From Saprospiraceae bacterium (GTDB lineage: Bacteria; Bacteroidota; Bacteroidia; Chitinophagales; Saprospiraceae), in the NCBI GenBank assembly GCA_019187225.1, contig JABAQQ010000014.1, forward strand, positions 1 to 64,000: a DNA stretch of 64,000 nt, written 5' to 3'. Each line of letters begins with the position of its first letter. Position 1 is the first letter of the stretch. The position numbers were made by a program, and so were the translations under genes. A model generated the notes under the pieces. That model worked only from the letters and a program-made list of their open reading frames with translations, searched no databases and had not been told where the DNA came from. Shown piece by piece: positions 34,231-39,194 of the stretch.

Positions 34231-35946
34231 TCAGGCCAGTTGATATTCCGCCAGGTTCATGATGTACTTGTGCATGCTGGCTAAGCGGAACCACACGGTT
34301 TGGTAAGCCATTTGGTTGCCCGGATTGGCGACGTAGGCAAGCCAGGCAGCCGTCCAGTAGAAGTCGTTGGACTGGTTAGAAAGCAGGATGCTTTTGAGGA
34401 ATTGTTTTTTTGCCGCCGAAACTTCCATCGGCAGTAAAATGCGCAACGTGTCGTCAATCAACAGGTTGGGATCGCCGGGATTGGGGAATTGTGCCGCGAA
34501 AGCCACATGATCCAGTTGCAGATCGGCATTGCCTGCAAGCACGGCGAAGGAAAGCAGATCAGTCAACAGGTTGCGGTTGCGCATGGTGTCGGCGTTGATC
34601 CAATCCCTGTAATAAGTGGGCGACTGCCGGAAGGCTTGCCAGCCTGCCACGTTGGGCGGGTCGCCGGGCAATAACTGCATGCCACCGCAGAAATAATTGA
34701 TCTGCAGGCGCAAGGTGTATTCGTCGAGCGGCGTCGGGGTCGGGATTTCTTTGTTGAAATTGCGCAGCACACCCAGCACCAGGTCGAGCGGGGTTTTGAT
34801 AAAACATCCTTTGTTGTAAGCGTCGAAAAAGTGCTCGCTGTTGAGCAAGGCCGCCATCACCGGGCGGATCTCGTAGTTGTTGTCGCGGAAGATCTGCGCC
34901 AGCGGCTCTATGATGTCGGTTTCGATTGTCGCGTCAATTTTGTAATACAGGAAAAAGCGGTAGATCTTCCGGCAAATAAATTTCGCTACATCTTCTTTCT
35001 GGAAGATCATCGCCAGCAGAGCGTCCAGTTCCTGTTCGCCGTTGCTGCTGCCCTGGATTACCGTGTTGTTGTAGTAGCCTGAAAAAACTTTAAAACCGGT
35101 ATCGTGGGCGTTGGGATCGAAATAAGTGGTGGCATTGGCAAAATTGATGCGCCAGCCGGTGAGCACCCGCGCCGCTGCCACCACATCGTCCTCCGAATAA
35201 GTCACGGGCGAGTCTTTGCCAACGGTGAACAATTCCTGCAATTCGCGGGCGTAATTTTCGTCGGGCGCTGCCACCGAATTCAAAAAGCCGTTGAGAAACA
35301 CCAGCATACACGGGTCCAGGGTCACGGCTTTGACAAATTCCCTGAAATTGCCGAGCGCGTGTTGCCGCAGGGTGGCGTTGTACAGATAGGAAAACCGGCC
35401 AAAGAAGGCAGCATCGGTGCGGGTCGCAAAGTGGTTGTGCCAGAACAAGGTCATTTTCTCCTGGATATTGGCCTCCGAATGAAGCATGCGGTCGAGCCAC
35501 CAGCCGCGCCACGATTCGATGCGCACGCCTTCAAAATCCAGGTTATAGGGCGCATTGACCCAGGCTTGCCCCAAGGGGACTGCCGGATCTATGTAAGGAG
35601 GATTGGCCTGCGGGTTGTTGTAATTGTTCACCGGCGGCGCGGGCGGCGTTTGCGGCACATCGAGCACAAAATCCACGGCGGCTTCGGCGCTGCCCAATGC
35701 CACTAACTGATCGAGTTGAGATTTTTTTACGCCGAATGTCACCCGCCGGAGCAGGTGCGCCGCTTGTTCGGGTCCCCAGGGCCCTGAGTAGGGCGTCAGG
35801 TCGCCGGAAAGGGTGAATTCGGATTCGGGAAAATGTGCCGCTGTCAGGTCAGCGGGTTCAGGAGCGATTCGTTCCACGCGCACTCCTTCTTCGGCGGGCA
35901 AAAACTGGTGGAAAAAATCTCTTCTGGAAATGGAAAGATCGGCCAT
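34231..35946 (-). CDS. DUF1800 protein
   Basis: A 571-residue protein. DUF1800 signatures: AAHLLRRVTFGVKKSQLDQL, SWRGWWLDRMLHSEANIQEK, MTLFWHNHFAT, CMLVFLNGFLNSVAAPDENY, ARELQELFTVGKD and VAAARVLTGW. A C-terminal segment reads PNVAGWQAFRQSPTYY. The N-terminus (MADLSISRRDFFHQFLPAEE) has RRDFF, reminiscent of a Tat motif but without a clear hydrophobic stretch. It forms an operon with the DUF1501 gene downstream. The function is unknown and probably extracytoplasmic. A heptamer array lies in its leader, between the promoter and the start codon. Confidence 0.88.
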   Translation of the reverse strand: MADLSISRRDFFHQFLPAEEGVRVERIAPEPADLTAAHFPESEFTLSGDLTPYSGPWGPEQAAHLLRRVTFGVKKSQLDQLVALGSAEAAVDFVLDVPQTPPAPPVNNYNNPQANPPYIDPAVPLGQAWVNAPYNLDFEGVRIESWRGWWLDRMLHSEANIQEKMTLFWHNHFATRTDAAFFGRFSYLYNATLRQHALGNFREFVKAVTLDPCMLVFLNGFLNSVAAPDENYARELQELFTVGKDSPVTYSEDDVVAAARVLTGWRINFANATTYFDPNAHDTGFKVFSGYYNNTVIQGSSNGEQELDALLAMIFQKEDVAKFICRKIYRFFLYYKIDATIETDIIEPLAQIFRDNNYEIRPVMAALLNSEHFFDAYNKGCFIKTPLDLVLGVLRNFNKEIPTPTPLDEYTLRLQINYFCGGMQLLPGDPPNVAGWQAFRQSPTYYRDWINADTMRNRNLLTDLLSFAVLAGNADLQLDHVAFAAQFPNPGDPNLLIDDTLRILLPMEVSAAKKQFLKSILLSNQSNDFYWTAAWLAYVANPGNQMAYQTVWFRLASMHKYIMNLAEYQLA

Positions 35947-35949
35947 AAT

Positions 35950-35990
35950 GATTGCGGATTGCGGATTGTTGATTGCGGATTGCGGATTGC
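35950..35990. repeat. Heptamer array GATTGCG in the DUF1800 leader
   Basis: Six tandem units (GATTGCG x2, GATTGTT, GATTGCG x2, partial GATTGC) begin 3 bases upstream of the DUF1800 start codon and lie between it and the promoter at 36022-36050. Confidence 0.85.
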
Positions 35991-36168: not shown

Positions 36169-36354
36169 ATGTTCGAGAACATCATTGAAGACATCCGAAA
36201 CCAGCAAGCCGTCCTCCTGCTCGGCCACGACTTCCTGCCCGGCGCACACGAGCAACTGCACAAATATTTGCAACAAAATAGTGAAAGATCTACCCCCCTT
36301 GTCATGTCGAACGCACCTTGTCATATCAGGGGTCCCTTGTCTTGTCGAGTGTAA
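36169..36354 (+). pseudogene. Truncated N-terminus resembling a SIR2-like/NTPase gene
   Basis: A TACATTTG box at 36132-36139 precedes an ATG at 36169. The frame begins MFENIIEDIRNQQAVLLLGH, then DFLPGAHEQLHKYLQQN. This resembles the first strand and glycine loop of SIR2-like domains found in Bacteroidota STAND or defence-type proteins (IxxxRxxxxVLLLGxxxL). After about 40 codons the frame runs into palindromic repeat sequence (from about 36296) and stops at 36354. No continuation is found downstream. I read it as a gene cut off by the repeat/GIY-YIG patch. The family assignment rests on about 35 residues and is weak. Confidence 0.4.
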
Positions 36355-36461
36355 GCGAGACATCTACACAACATCCTTTACCACAGTACCCCATTGATGC
36401 TCAAGACGCCATCGCAAGACCGGTTTGTGTATATGTCTCATTTCATTCGACATGACAGGGC
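36337..36461. repeat. GIY-YIG-associated palindrome, copy 1
   Basis: The left arm (about 36337-36372: CTTGTCTTGTCGAGTG, then AGCGAGACATCTACACAA) pairs with the right arm (about 36425-36461: TTGTGTATATGTCTCATTTC, then TTCGACATGACAGG). The centre is about 50 bases. A stray half-copy (TTGTCATGTCGAACGCA) lies at about 36299-36315. It is upstream of the GIY-YIG gene. Confidence 0.85.
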
Positions 36462-36496
36462 TATTCATAATAAAATTAACCATCATCGTCAAAACC

Positions 36497-36910
36497 ATGA
36501 AACAACATGAATACTACGTCTATATCACCACCAATCCAAACCGAACCGTGCTGTACATCGGCATGACCAACGACATTGCCCGGCGGTTAGTGGAACATTA
36601 TGCCCATCGGGGAAAAGAAGAGACATTTGCTGGCAGAACCTATTGCTATTGCTTGATTTACTTAGAGTTGTTCCAGTACGTCAACAACGCGATTGATAGG
36701 GAAACGGAGTTGAAAGCGTGGCGAAGAGAAAAAAAGGATGCCTTGATTGCCGAAGAGCGATTGATTAGATCAAAAGACCCCGAATTGCCTACAACATTCT
36801 TTGGCATGTCGAACGCAGCGAGACACCTACACAAGCCGGGCACCCGACGAAATCTCAGAGGCACCGTGCTGGACGGATGTTGTGTAGATGTCTCTCTGCG
36901 TTCGACATGA
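36497..36910 (+). CDS. GIY-YIG endonuclease-superfamily protein lying among palindromes
   Basis: The 137-residue frame starts at the ATG at 36497 (MKQHEYYVYITTNPNRTVLY). The nuclease core covers about residues 5-95: YVYI then YIGMTND (GIY-YIG), the basic IARRLVEHYAH, and ETELKAWRREKKDALI with the expected Glu. This matches the small YhbQ/UvrC-like single-domain group common in Bacteroidota. Residues from about 103 (MSNAARHLHKPGTRRNLRGT) to the stop are translated from palindrome copy 2 and are not part of the domain. Palindromes lie on both sides. Its activity, if any, would be DNA nicking; a role in moving the palindromes is only a hypothesis. Confidence 0.85.
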   Translation: MKQHEYYVYITTNPNRTVLYIGMTNDIARRLVEHYAHRGKEETFAGRTYCYCLIYLELFQYVNNAIDRETELKAWRREKKDALIAEERLIRSKDPELPTTFFGMSNAARHLHKPGTRRNLRGTVLDGCCVDVSLRST

Positions 36911-36916
36911 CAAGGG
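36803..36916. repeat. GIY-YIG-associated palindrome, copy 2, overlapping the gene's 3' end
   Basis: The left arm 36803-36835 (GGCATGTCGAACGCAGCGAG, then ACACCTACACAAG) pairs with the right arm 36880-36916 (TTGTGTAGATGTCTC, then TGCGTTCGACATGACAAGGG), loop about 45 bases. The GIY-YIG stop codon (36908-36910) lies in the right arm. Confidence 0.9.
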
Positions 36917-36956
36917 ACGCTCGATATGGCAAAGCACGTTTCTGTTTTTCACTCTT

Positions 36957-37073
36957 TTGTCATGTCGAGCGTGAGCGAGACACCTACACAAGCCGGGCAT
37001 ATCACGGAACCCCGGTGAGGCATCCTGCTGAACAAATGTTGTGTAGATGTCTCATTTCATTCGACATGACAAG
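36957..37073. repeat. GIY-YIG-associated palindrome, copy 3
   Basis: The left arm begins TTTGTCATGTCGAGCGTGAG at 36957; the right arm ends TTCATTCGACATGACAAG at 37073. The left arm is nearly identical to copy 2 (through ACACCTACACAAGCCGGGCA) and the right arm to copy 1, consistent with copying or recombination among them. It ends 22 bases before the acetylesterase stop codon. Confidence 0.9.
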
Positions 37074-37094: not shown

Positions 37095-39050
37095 CTACTC
37101 AAACCTCCCCTTCACCGTCACCCCCTCCCAATCATCCGTCCGGAACGGGCAAGCAGGAAATCCTTCCGCGTTGAACAGGTTGGCGTCCTCCGGCGCGTCG
37201 GACCAGGCGTAGCGCACGGAGGTGGCTATCAATCCTCCCGGATGCTGCACCACGACTTTGGCGCCTTCTATCTCAGCTTTGGCGTAGTGAAAAACGCGAT
37301 CGGGGCCGGCGACTTCAAAACCTTTGAGATAGCCGTATTTGTCATCCACCATAAGGCCGCCGCCAACGTATTTGAAAGCCAGAATTGCCTTGTCGTTTTC
37401 AAATTGAACCGACTCGTACATCGGGCCGCTGTGCAACACATCCTGTTGGTACACGAATTTCAACGCATTGGCCGCTAAGCGTTTGCCCACGTCCTGTTTG
37501 TTGCGGGGGTGAATGTCGTGCGGGTCGCCGATGTCGGTGGTGACGGCCATGCCCGTGTTGGGGAGGCGGAGGGTCATGGTTTGCGCTTCGCGGAGTTCGG
37601 CCCAGTTGCTGCCCTGGTTGCTGTTTTGCGAAGCGCCGTAAGAGGAAAGTTGCACGAAATAGAAAGGAAATTCCTCGTTCCAGCGTTTGCGCCAGTCCCC
37701 GATCATGAGCGGAAAGGAGTGGCGGTACTCGTAGGCGCGGCCAGCGTTGGTTTCGCCCTGGTACCAGAGCGCGCCGCGAATGACATAAGGGATGAGCGGT
37801 GCGATCATGGCGTTGTAAATCGCCGTGCCGACGTTGTTGCTCGAATGAGCGAACGAGTGCGGTTCGGCAAACGAAGGCATGAGCCGCCAGTCGTCGCCCG
37901 CGAGACTGATCTTTTGGGCCGGGGTGCTGACGTACAAGTCGTTTTCAGAACCTACCAGACCAAGGCCGTACCACTCCGGTTCGATGGCTTTGTTCGTTTT
38001 TACCACGAGACTGTTCGGGCCGGGTTTCCAGGTGTCGGCGGGTATTAAAATCTGGCGGGTGCCTTTCAGCAGCCCGGCGGCGGCGAGTTTTCCGTTGATA
38101 TATACTTCGTTATAACTGAACTGCTCGGCCAGACCCAAGGTGGTGATCTGGCCCGTCATTTCAGCGGGGATTTCGACGGTCTTCGCCATAAAACCGTTGC
38201 CGCGCCAGGCCCAGATGCCTTTCCAGTCCCACTGCCACATCGGGCTGGCTTTGAGCCAGTTGGAAAAATCGTAGCCGGGTTGCAGGTATTTTTTCTCGTC
38301 GTCGGGTGAGAGGCTTGCGTCGGGGTTGCCCAGCAATTTTTTTTTGATGCTGCGTTCGAGCCGCAGGTCGGCTTCTTCCCAGTTTTTCGGCAGTTTTTCG
38401 CCGTAAGATTTCAGCACATCCGAGCCGCACATGGCTTCTTTGCTGATCCAGCTTTCCACCTGCGAACCGCCCCAGGAGGAGTTCAGCAAACCGATCGGTA
38501 CGCCCGTTTTTTGAAACACTTCCCTGGCGAAATAAAAGCCGACGGCAGTGAAGTCGCCTACTGTTTGAGCCTCGCAAACGACCCAATCGCCCGATTTTAA
38601 GTCTTCTTCCGGTGTGAGCGACACTTCATGCTGCACTTTGAAATGGCGGATATTCGGAAAACCGGCGTTTTTCTTTTCCTCCGGATAATTGGCTGATTGG
38701 GCCACTGTCCATTCCATGTTCGATTGACCGGAGCAAAGCCACACGTCGCCGATGAGAATGTCCGAGATTTCCAATCGGCCGGAGGGTGTCGAGGCGGCGA
38801 GCGTGTACGGCCCGCCGGCTTCCATCGGTGAAAATTTCACCTGCCACTTGCCGTTTTTGTCCGTTTTTGCCTGGCGTGTCTGGCCGGCGAGTGCGACGCT
38901 TACCTCTTCGCCCGGATTGGCCCATCCCCACACGGGTATCGGTTTTTGACGCTGCAACACCGCGTGATCGGTGAAAAGGCGGGCGAGGTGGAGTTGGGCG
39001 GTTGATTCGAGAGAAAAGAGGACAAAAACGAAAATTATTGATTTTTTCAT
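37095..39050 (-). CDS. Sialate O-acetylesterase family protein
   Basis: A 651-residue secreted esterase from the ATG at 39050 (MKKSIIFVFVLFSLESTAQ, signal peptide); an in-frame Met at 39170 would bury the signal. The SGNH-type core has the nucleophile Ser in WLCSGQSNMEW, then VGFYFAREVFQKTGVPIGLL with NSSWGGSQVESW. An inserted beta-sandwich (about 295-420) precedes RGALWYQGETNAGRAYEYRH and the catalytic His region DPHDIHPRNKQDVG. The family removes O-acetyl groups from sialic acids, but in loci like this also from plant polysaccharides such as xylan or pectin. With GH51 and uronate genes nearby, the polysaccharide role is more likely. Confidence 0.9.
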   Translation of the reverse strand: MKKSIIFVFVLFSLESTAQLHLARLFTDHAVLQRQKPIPVWGWANPGEEVSVALAGQTRQAKTDKNGKWQVKFSPMEAGGPYTLAASTPSGRLEISDILIGDVWLCSGQSNMEWTVAQSANYPEEKKNAGFPNIRHFKVQHEVSLTPEEDLKSGDWVVCEAQTVGDFTAVGFYFAREVFQKTGVPIGLLNSSWGGSQVESWISKEAMCGSDVLKSYGEKLPKNWEEADLRLERSIKKKLLGNPDASLSPDDEKKYLQPGYDFSNWLKASPMWQWDWKGIWAWRGNGFMAKTVEIPAEMTGQITTLGLAEQFSYNEVYINGKLAAAGLLKGTRQILIPADTWKPGPNSLVVKTNKAIEPEWYGLGLVGSENDLYVSTPAQKISLAGDDWRLMPSFAEPHSFAHSSNNVGTAIYNAMIAPLIPYVIRGALWYQGETNAGRAYEYRHSFPLMIGDWRKRWNEEFPFYFVQLSSYGASQNSNQGSNWAELREAQTMTLRLPNTGMAVTTDIGDPHDIHPRNKQDVGKRLAANALKFVYQQDVLHSGPMYESVQFENDKAILAFKYVGGGLMVDDKYGYLKGFEVAGPDRVFHYAKAEIEGAKVVVQHPGGLIATSVRYAWSDAPEDANLFNAEGFPACPFRTDDWEGVTVKGRFE

Positions 39051-39194
39051 GATGAAATTGTTAGTACACCAACCCACCCGAGGCCCTTGAAGGGAGAAAA
39101 TCGCTTCGCTCCCGGCTTTCGGCAAAACAGTAAGCCAGGCGAAATTGGTTAGCTCTTTGTCTCTCTCCATTCGGGGGAGGGGCCGGTGGCAGGA

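Follow-up and report, generated by a model that had tools for sequence, protein, structure and literature searches.

The window, a stretch of 64,000 nucleotides comprising bases 1-64000 of contig C3 in a 7.18 Mb Saprospiraceae genome, contains a small GIY-YIG nuclease gene set among three palindromes, with a DUF1800 gene on one side and a gene with a sialic-acid-esterase domain on the other (Table 1). Between the DUF1800 gene and the palindromes lies the beginning of a further gene, which a sequence-only reading of this DNA had described as cut off where the repeats begin. Comparison with relatives bears this out: the codons from 36169 match the N-termini of open frames of 360 and 381 aa in two of 42 genomes of the genus, with 57-58% identity over 33-35 aa, and the match stops ~17 nt short of the repeats. 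One of the two full-length relatives, the L269 protein, matched SIR2_2 and EAD11 when scanned; the remnant by itself has no Pfam match. Upstream of the DUF1800 gene, at 35949-35989, TGATTGCGGATTGCGGATTG occurs twice in exact form, 21 nt from start to start.

Table 1. Features at and around the GIY-YIG gene of the window.
Feature	Position	Strand	Remarks
DUF1800 gene	34231-35946	minus	Left neighbour of the remnant, the palindromes and the GIY-YIG gene
N-terminal remnant of a SIR2_2-EAD11-like gene	36169..36295	+	Cut off at the repeats; assigned by sequence match
Extra half-unit CCCTTGTCATGTCGAACGCA	36296..36315	+	Perfect inverse of 36897-36916
Palindrome copy 1	36337..36461		Two inverted tagged units, tags outward: left TTGTCTTGTCGA, right TGTCATGTCGA
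GIY-YIG nuclease gene	36497..36910	+	137 aa from ATG; PF01541 E 2.4e-13
Palindrome copy 2	36801..36916		Two inverted tagged units; arms 36801-36834/36880-36913
Palindrome copy 3	36957..37073		Left arm resembles that of copy 2, right arm that of copy 1
Gene with sialic-acid-esterase domain	37095-39170	minus	Right neighbour of the GIY-YIG cassette

Each of the three palindromes is a pair of inverted units with a tag, TTGTC/TGTCA, at the outer ends. Five of the six units have TGTC, the exception being the left unit of copy 2 with TGGC, and the tails of the units read CCTACACAA or TCTACACAA. The arms said to be common to the three copies were recovered. Those of copy 2 are 34 nt long and match at 91%, and repeat families join the left arms of copies 1 and 3 (36337-36371 and 36957-36991, 89%) as well as the right arms of these two copies, which end at 36459 and 37073. 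Individual units lie at 36434-36456 (right unit of copy 1, GTCATGTCGA..GAGACA), at 36889-36911 (right unit of copy 2) and, in copy 3, at 36959-36982 (+) and 37048-37070 (-). The mosaic make-up attributed to copy 3 is likewise evident, its inner left arm being identical to that of copy 2 over 26 nt and its right unit identical to that of copy 1, GTCATGTCGAATGAAATGAGACA. Folded as single-stranded DNA, whole palindromes 1, 2 and 3 give z values of -3.1, -7.0 and -5.1, and none of 200 dinucleotide shuffles of each does as well. Four single arms folded alone give z values of -0.1 to 0.8 with outer stems of 3-5 bp, and form no strong hairpin. The strong structure in the window is the two-arm unit, not the single arm.

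The palindromes enclose the nuclease gene, as had been proposed, and the gene runs into the second of them. A longer frame with a TTG start spans 36425-36910, and the stop codon occupies 36908-36910; because copy 2 begins at 36801-36803, about 35 codons are read from the palindrome, the first ~105 nt of which double as the last 35 codons of the gene. The sole Pfam family matched by the protein is PF01541 (50.6 bits, cut-off 22.6), and the gene linked to these palindromes is thus not a HUH/Y1 transposase. An AlphaFold model is confident over residues ~1-90, with pLDDT below 50 at 98-112 and 114-137; this low-confidence part is the palindrome-encoded tail, the usual C-terminus of the family having been swapped for palindrome-read codons in this copy. 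In Foldseek comparisons with solved structures GIY-YIG proteins rank best, although all E-values are weak: UPF0213 at E 1.1e-3 (the best match), Slx1 at E 0.02-0.08, UvrC at E 0.4 and I-TevI at E 1.7. The protein keeps Y9, Y20, R30, H34 and E69, which, together with N at position 94, we take to be the catalytic residues of the GIY-YIG family. It deviates at three nearly invariant positions, T48, T70 and D94, where Y, K and N are found in 53, 54 and 54 of 55 aligned proteins, respectively. Judged by these substitutions, the window copy may therefore be decaying or weakened; the claim made for the family is independent of the state of this copy.

In the genome as a whole, the pattern GTCATGTCGA-N(3-14)-GAGACA has four exact matches in 7.18 Mb, all four around the window GIY-YIG gene, and its reversed control has none. 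One degenerate pair of the same family lies on contig C22, on which no GIY-YIG gene was found; the family is otherwise confined to the window locus. A second GIY-YIG gene, on contig C36, sits inside arrays of another palindrome, TGTCATGYTGTAARCACCCGTCCG, and comparable units adjoin its nearest relatives in two congeneric genomes, GTCATTTTGTAAAAAACCGTCCG (locus L008) and GTCATGTTGTAAACATCTGTCCG (L007/L024). The palindrome class used for the Bacteroidota count below has 19 pattern matches in this genome, and 15 of the 16 listed lie away from the GIY-YIG genes found. A second palindrome family, GTCATTCTGAGCGCAGCGAA, is scattered over contigs C4-C36, away from the GIY-YIG genes found, and includes two inverted pairs 65 bp apart (C15, C16). 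The genome has a third small GIY-YIG ORF (L266, G000:C11:20820-21008), with KSGSGRA near its C-terminus.

The sequence-only reading had suggested a search for enrichment of the repeats beside GIY-YIG genes, and such enrichment is found in relatives of the nuclease as well as at the window locus. Eighty loci were kept, from at least 565 relatives among 581 stretches of named genomes; their record titles name Bacteroidota, Clostridia, Proteobacteria, Fibrobacter, Leptospiraceae, Verrucomicrobia, Chloroflexi, Bifidobacterium, Elusimicrobiota, Acidobacteria, Patescibacteria and others. A repeat common to both 400-nt flanks (score at least 40; five of the 80 loci were dropped for short flanks) is present at 47 of 75 loci compared with 2 of 267 shifted control windows from the same loci, the remaining 28 having no common repeat at this threshold. 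In a Bacteroidota set of the 30 best-scoring loci, which includes the C36 gene, 24 are positive, in a comparison with a single control window. Sharing between flanks is by itself unspecific, because a score of at least 40 is also reached at 7 of 8 loci belonging to another small GIY-YIG group, mostly through tRNA-gene pieces in the six checked.

GTCAT is the most enriched of 536 5-mers (68 of 71 loci vs 144 of 261 controls), and four 8-mers within GTCATTGCGAG occur at 29-32 of 71 loci vs 2-8 of 261 controls. GTC followed by a stem of at least 5 accounts for 407 of 1830 occurrences near the gene and 640 of 7308 far from it; the control words CAG, GAC and CTG are followed by a stem in 8-11% of cases near the gene and 8% far from it. 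Tagged hairpins reach 7.07 per kb in gene-adjacent segments and 1.42 in other intergenic segments (80 vs 104 segments of at least 80 nt). A cruder test, the tag beside any hairpin of at least 6 bp, was dropped because it admits too many random hairpins: CGTC was enriched 2.9x and TGTC 2.4x, but CGAG 4.8x.

These counts bear on one alternative, that intergenic repeats pile up beside a small dispensable gene. The nuclease genes are indeed small and frequently occupy long intergenic regions, and a second small GIY-YIG group has repeated flanks of tRNA origin. When intergenic segments of at least 150 nt are compared with one another, however, a tagged hairpin is present in 53 of 60 gene-adjacent segments and in 18 of 74 others; the class of palindrome also co-varies with the nuclease (see below), and at loci of the other GIY-YIG group GTCAT occurs 0-3 times in 800 nt. 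Mere accumulation is thus a most improbable explanation. The other group (L020-L023, L029, L030, L032, L034) was considered as part of the same system and rejected on account of its tRNA-piece repeats and its scarcity of GTCAT. Transfer RNA genes were found in six of its eight loci: at L020, L021, L022, L029, L032 and L034 the small GIY-YIG gene (MFYVYILQS..GKLYIGQTNNL and similar) adjoins tRNA genes (Ser, Pro, others), and most of the tRNA-adjacent loci have direct repeats of tRNA pieces on both sides. This group occupies a different niche, perhaps by insertion at tRNA sites.

Palindromes that look like a described kind adjoin the gene in the proteobacterial loci read. A plasmid collection contained 32 records with a match, and eight proteobacterial loci were read. 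CGTC- or CCTC-tagged palindromes adjoin the gene in all eight, on both sides in seven; in Rhizobium tumorigenes the stretch read shows them downstream only. A strict pattern finds units at the gene in three of the eight (Azospirillum lipoferum, Rhizobium CIAT894 and Neisseria), those of the other five being assigned by eye, and the stems in Novosphingobium aromaticivorans and Sphingobium do not start with AT. The A. lipoferum unit, CGTCATCCCCGCGAAGGCGGGGATCCA, is paired and lies on both sides of the gene. Going by the core, the Neisseria units at the GIY-YIG locus are presumably dRS3. One record, NZ_CP119140.1, is labelled a Neisseria gonorrhoeae plasmid; at 2.17 Mb it is chromosome-sized, has 12 annotated features and is probably mislabelled.

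CGTC-tagged REPs were reported without a dedicated transposase in a 2013 survey (Di Nocera et al. 2013, PMC3733652), the available text of which mentions transposase genes only, equates the neisserial CGTC-1 class with dRS3 and gives A. lipoferum, Sinorhizobium meliloti, N. aromaticivorans and Neisseria among the hosts, all four of which are represented in the eight loci. Caulobacter is also among its CGTC-positive species, and PMC10688885 names CCNA_00744 and CCNA_01405 of Caulobacter crescentus NA1000 as GIY-YIG nucleases. The proteobacterial units found here have the features of such REPs, namely the tag, the AT-started stem, the CC(A) tail and the head-to-head pair (by the strict pattern at 3 of 8 loci). 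The window units have the tag (CGTC, TGTC or CCTC), the left unit of copy 2 excepted, and do not have the 8-9 bp AT-started stem, the loop of 4-5 and the CCA tail. Among the literature matches listed, no title or abstract opening links GIY-YIG to these repeats, in a search that took in few subscription papers and no bioRxiv preprints, so that the link may be published elsewhere; a word search found no "GIY" in PMC3733652, PMC12306157, PMC8266576 or PMC6006769.

The subfamily of the nuclease and the class of its palindromes co-vary, a second expectation of the sequence-only reading. Profile comparison relates a second subfamily of the nuclease, type C (alignment A2), to type A. Type A genes adjoin units with the core GAGC-N-GCGA and type C genes units with the core GAGC-N-GTCGA. 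At loci with one core only, first and second cores stand at 37:2 for type A and 0:17 for type C (Fisher 1.7e-12), and within Bacteroidota at 20:0 and 0:17. The full counts are, for 105 type A loci, 42 with the first core, 7 with the second, 5 with both and 61 with neither, and for 27 type C loci, 2, 19, 2 and 8; the controls, which cover type A only, comprise 138 windows, 16 with the first core and 5 with the second. In the canonical GA-type unit (18 loci, 45 units) the strand of the tag is constant relative to the core, with none reversed, and the stems carry mismatches. Loops on the tagged strand at the same 18 loci are GNA in 8 of 17 triloops, GNNA in 7 of 8 tetraloops and TNC in none. GNA and GNNA loops are stable in single-stranded DNA, and the bias fits a stable single-strand loop. 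Stability as single-stranded DNA was rejected as a trait of every unit: the dRS3-type gives z -4.4, but two GA-type units (z -0.3 and -0.4) fold no better than shuffles.

Copy number was also compared across genomes. Of 247 Bacteroidota genomes at least 90% complete, at least 152 have a small GIY-YIG gene, with up to 18 candidates scored per genome and none detected in the other 95, and five or more palindromes of one class occur in 48 of 152 gene-positive and 12 of 95 gene-negative genomes (a hand count uncorrected for kinship, for which the reversed-pattern control gave 0 to 5 per genome on both strands); the other 104 gene-positive genomes have fewer than five of that class. In the 12 gene-negative exceptions, one of which has 78 copies, PF01541 matches only frames of 517-759 aa, which are UvrC-sized. 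Palindromes abundant in genomes lacking the gene had been named at the outset as evidence against a partnership, and these 12 genomes are in part such a case. The association of gene and repeats stands, but the repeats can persist where the gene has been lost, or can stem from something else.

Dispersal of whole pairs is seen in Hymenobacter aerophilus, in which 18 of 25 units form nine inverted pairs 125-132 bp apart, three of the units lie at the gene, and the reversed unit pattern has no match. This dispersal of paired units is REPIN-like, and the same palindrome class is carried by 17 of 24 chosen named genomes. In another genome, six GTCATTCCGAGCAYCAGCGAG units lie within 33 kb (G046:C2:1200406-1232701) and are all six matches in that genome. 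An alternative is a domesticated pair, in which the palindromes would serve as binding sites or RNA hairpins for gene control, or in chromosome upkeep, and would not be spread by the nuclease. Their place directly up- and downstream of the gene, their co-variation with the nuclease and the confinement of the window family to one locus, save one degenerate pair, would all suit such a role; the many copies elsewhere in some genomes, the tandem amplification of palindromes beside the gene at locus L026 and the presence or absence of the cassette between relatives would not, and we consider domestication very unlikely.

Sites with and without the cassette can be compared between relatives. In genome G031 a type C cassette is read in frame within hsdR (a 966-aa frame), with ACTTCGACAAGCTCAGT and GCTGAGCCTGTCGAAGC, inverted, at its borders; hsdR of G287, of the same genus (DNA identity 87% and 79% on either side), has no insert, nor has hsdR of three further genomes, and at the G031 junction ~35 nt of host sequence differ or are lost. 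Azospirillum lipoferum 4B has a cassette between sufB and sufC that four other aligned Azospirillum plasmids do not, with flanks 90-97% identical. A Shinella plasmid site measures 679 nt with the cassette and 114 nt of unrelated sequence in its place. Sphingobium plasmids TomMM7A and TomMM15 carry a cassette beside fnrL, where TomTYG64 has a single palindrome in which the left half of the left REP is joined to the right half of the right one. TomTYG74 has a mutated version of this palindrome there, and TomTYG72 has neither cassette nor palindrome. Target-site duplications were not readable at these four empty sites (hsdR, Azospirillum, Sphingobium, Shinella), the flanks being too diverged. Empty sites are therefore seen for these four cassettes and not for the window copy: with DUF1800 as anchor, many congeners retain both this gene and the one to its left, and no match to the right neighbour was found within the stretches fetched.

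In-frame GIY-YIG domains were also noticed in other settings. Inside hsdR-like ORFs of more than 1100 aa (named by eye), one occurs at the identical place in two genomes of different families (L261, G349:C65; L262, G469:C29); no palindrome (REP) core was seen there, and these insertions, which also have the look of another subgroup, are for both reasons not counted as support. A GIY-YIG ORF at L263 (G068:C1:322553-322810) is read in phase with a PLP-deaminase-like ORF (by eye), at its beginning, and is bordered by the repeated peptide GLDSARPDI, presumably read from a palindrome.

The empty sites bear on the main rival explanation, in which the gene is a hitchhiker that homes into existing REPs as landing sites and the REPs spread by other means. 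Homing endonucleases of the GIY-YIG type are already described (PMC1564403, in the part available), and REPs occur in other genomes without a detected gene. The joined outer REP halves in TomTYG64 are what a homing target would look like, although an excision scar would look the same and the palindrome can be either; the mutated palindrome at the cassette site of the related plasmid TomTYG74 points the same way. Against homing, a scan for tagged hairpins found none in the empty hsdR site, the two Shinella sites and three of the four Azospirillum sites, the inverted repeat at the empty site of Azospirillum sp. B510 being of other sequence. Gene and REPs therefore probably arrived together at the sites lacking a tagged hairpin. 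The paired units of Hymenobacter, dispersed away from the gene locus, likewise argue against homing, though other GIY-YIG genes may lie beside them. We judge homing unlikely, though less so than the other two alternatives.

With the linkage of gene and palindromes, the co-variation of subfamilies, the presence or absence at sites and the dispersal of paired units all observed directly, a second partnership of REPs and a nuclease, like REP-RAYT and with an unrelated enzyme, is well supported. The window locus is probably one copy of a widespread bacterial cassette whose GIY-YIG nuclease, bracketed by tagged REPs, would cut and spread the palindromes. The cassette would consist of a small stand-alone GIY-YIG gene and its own (C/T)GTC-tagged palindromes (REPs), often head-to-head as REPINs. 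Its nuclease would recognise the tagged hairpin, single-stranded or extruded, and cut in or next to the GTC tag; the fold family (UPF0213, Slx1, UvrC, I-TevI) suggests a cut in hairpin or branched DNA at this tag. We propose that repair or copying of the cut ends would then carry the palindromes elsewhere, in part with the gene enclosed and in part alone, so that the enzyme would be responsible for both the cutting and the spread. GIY-YIG enzymes hydrolyse DNA, and we know of none that carries out strand transfer, so insertion would need host steps. The hydrolytic nuclease would be an unrelated counterpart of the HUH transposase in REP-RAYT.

A broader reading, for which the case is nearly balanced and to which we lean slightly less than halfway, is that small GIY-YIG nucleases are the missing enzymes of the whole (C/T)GTC REP superfamily, spanning CGTC REPs, dRS3 and possibly Rickettsia RPE-4/6, with each subfamily reading its own class. 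The route of hydrolytic hairpin cutting and copying that this entails might, equally tentatively, be unlike any known transposition. A candidate enzyme can now be named for the CGTC REPs, whose spread the 2013 survey (PMC3733652) left unexplained in its available text: it adjoins them, co-varies with the class of palindrome and has a size that suits purification and assay. If true, the proposal would establish a second, independently evolved REP system in many phyla and give a role to many GIY-YIG genes now annotated as generic nuclease or "excinuclease". Prediction of the palindrome class from the nuclease sequence becomes testable.

The closest solved relatives of the protein by sequence are UPF0213 proteins (PDB 1zg2, E 2.8e-9; 1ywl, E 1.8e-7), 1zg2 also ranking first by fold; these are hypothetical proteins. 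With GIY-YIG homing endonucleases of the I-TevI type the system has in common the catalytic fold and a gene that behaves as a movable unit. It differs from them in being a single small domain bracketed by palindromes, and in that most of the empty sites read are without palindromes.

CGTC-tagged REPs, among them neisserial dRS3 and rickettsial RPE-4/RPE-6, have in common with the palindromes described here the tag (CGTC, TGTC or CCTC) and the head-to-head pairs, and the Azospirillum lipoferum, Rhizobium and Neisseria units agree with them in tag, AT-started stem and tail, as compared with the published text rather than the consensus figure. The differences are that a GIY-YIG gene is linked to the repeats here, whereas the available text of PMC3733652 has no dedicated transposase, and that in the window units the stem is short and mismatched and the CCA tail is missing.

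The parallel with REP sequences and their RAYT transposases, first drawn from the layout of the window, holds and generalises (47 of 75 loci vs 2 of 267 control windows). As in REP/REPIN-RAYT (TnpA-REP) systems, tagged palindromes, mostly head-to-head, bracket a small gene for a DNA enzyme, and further copies are dispersed. Conserved stem mismatches are needed for activity in E. coli REPs, according to the available part of PMC8266576, and the GA-type units are mismatched too. The tag, by contrast, is GTC(A) (TTGTC/TGTC in the window) and not GTAG, and the enzyme is a GIY-YIG nuclease and not a HUH/Y1 transposase. GIY-YIG chemistry is expected to proceed with no covalent intermediate, unlike that of RAYT.
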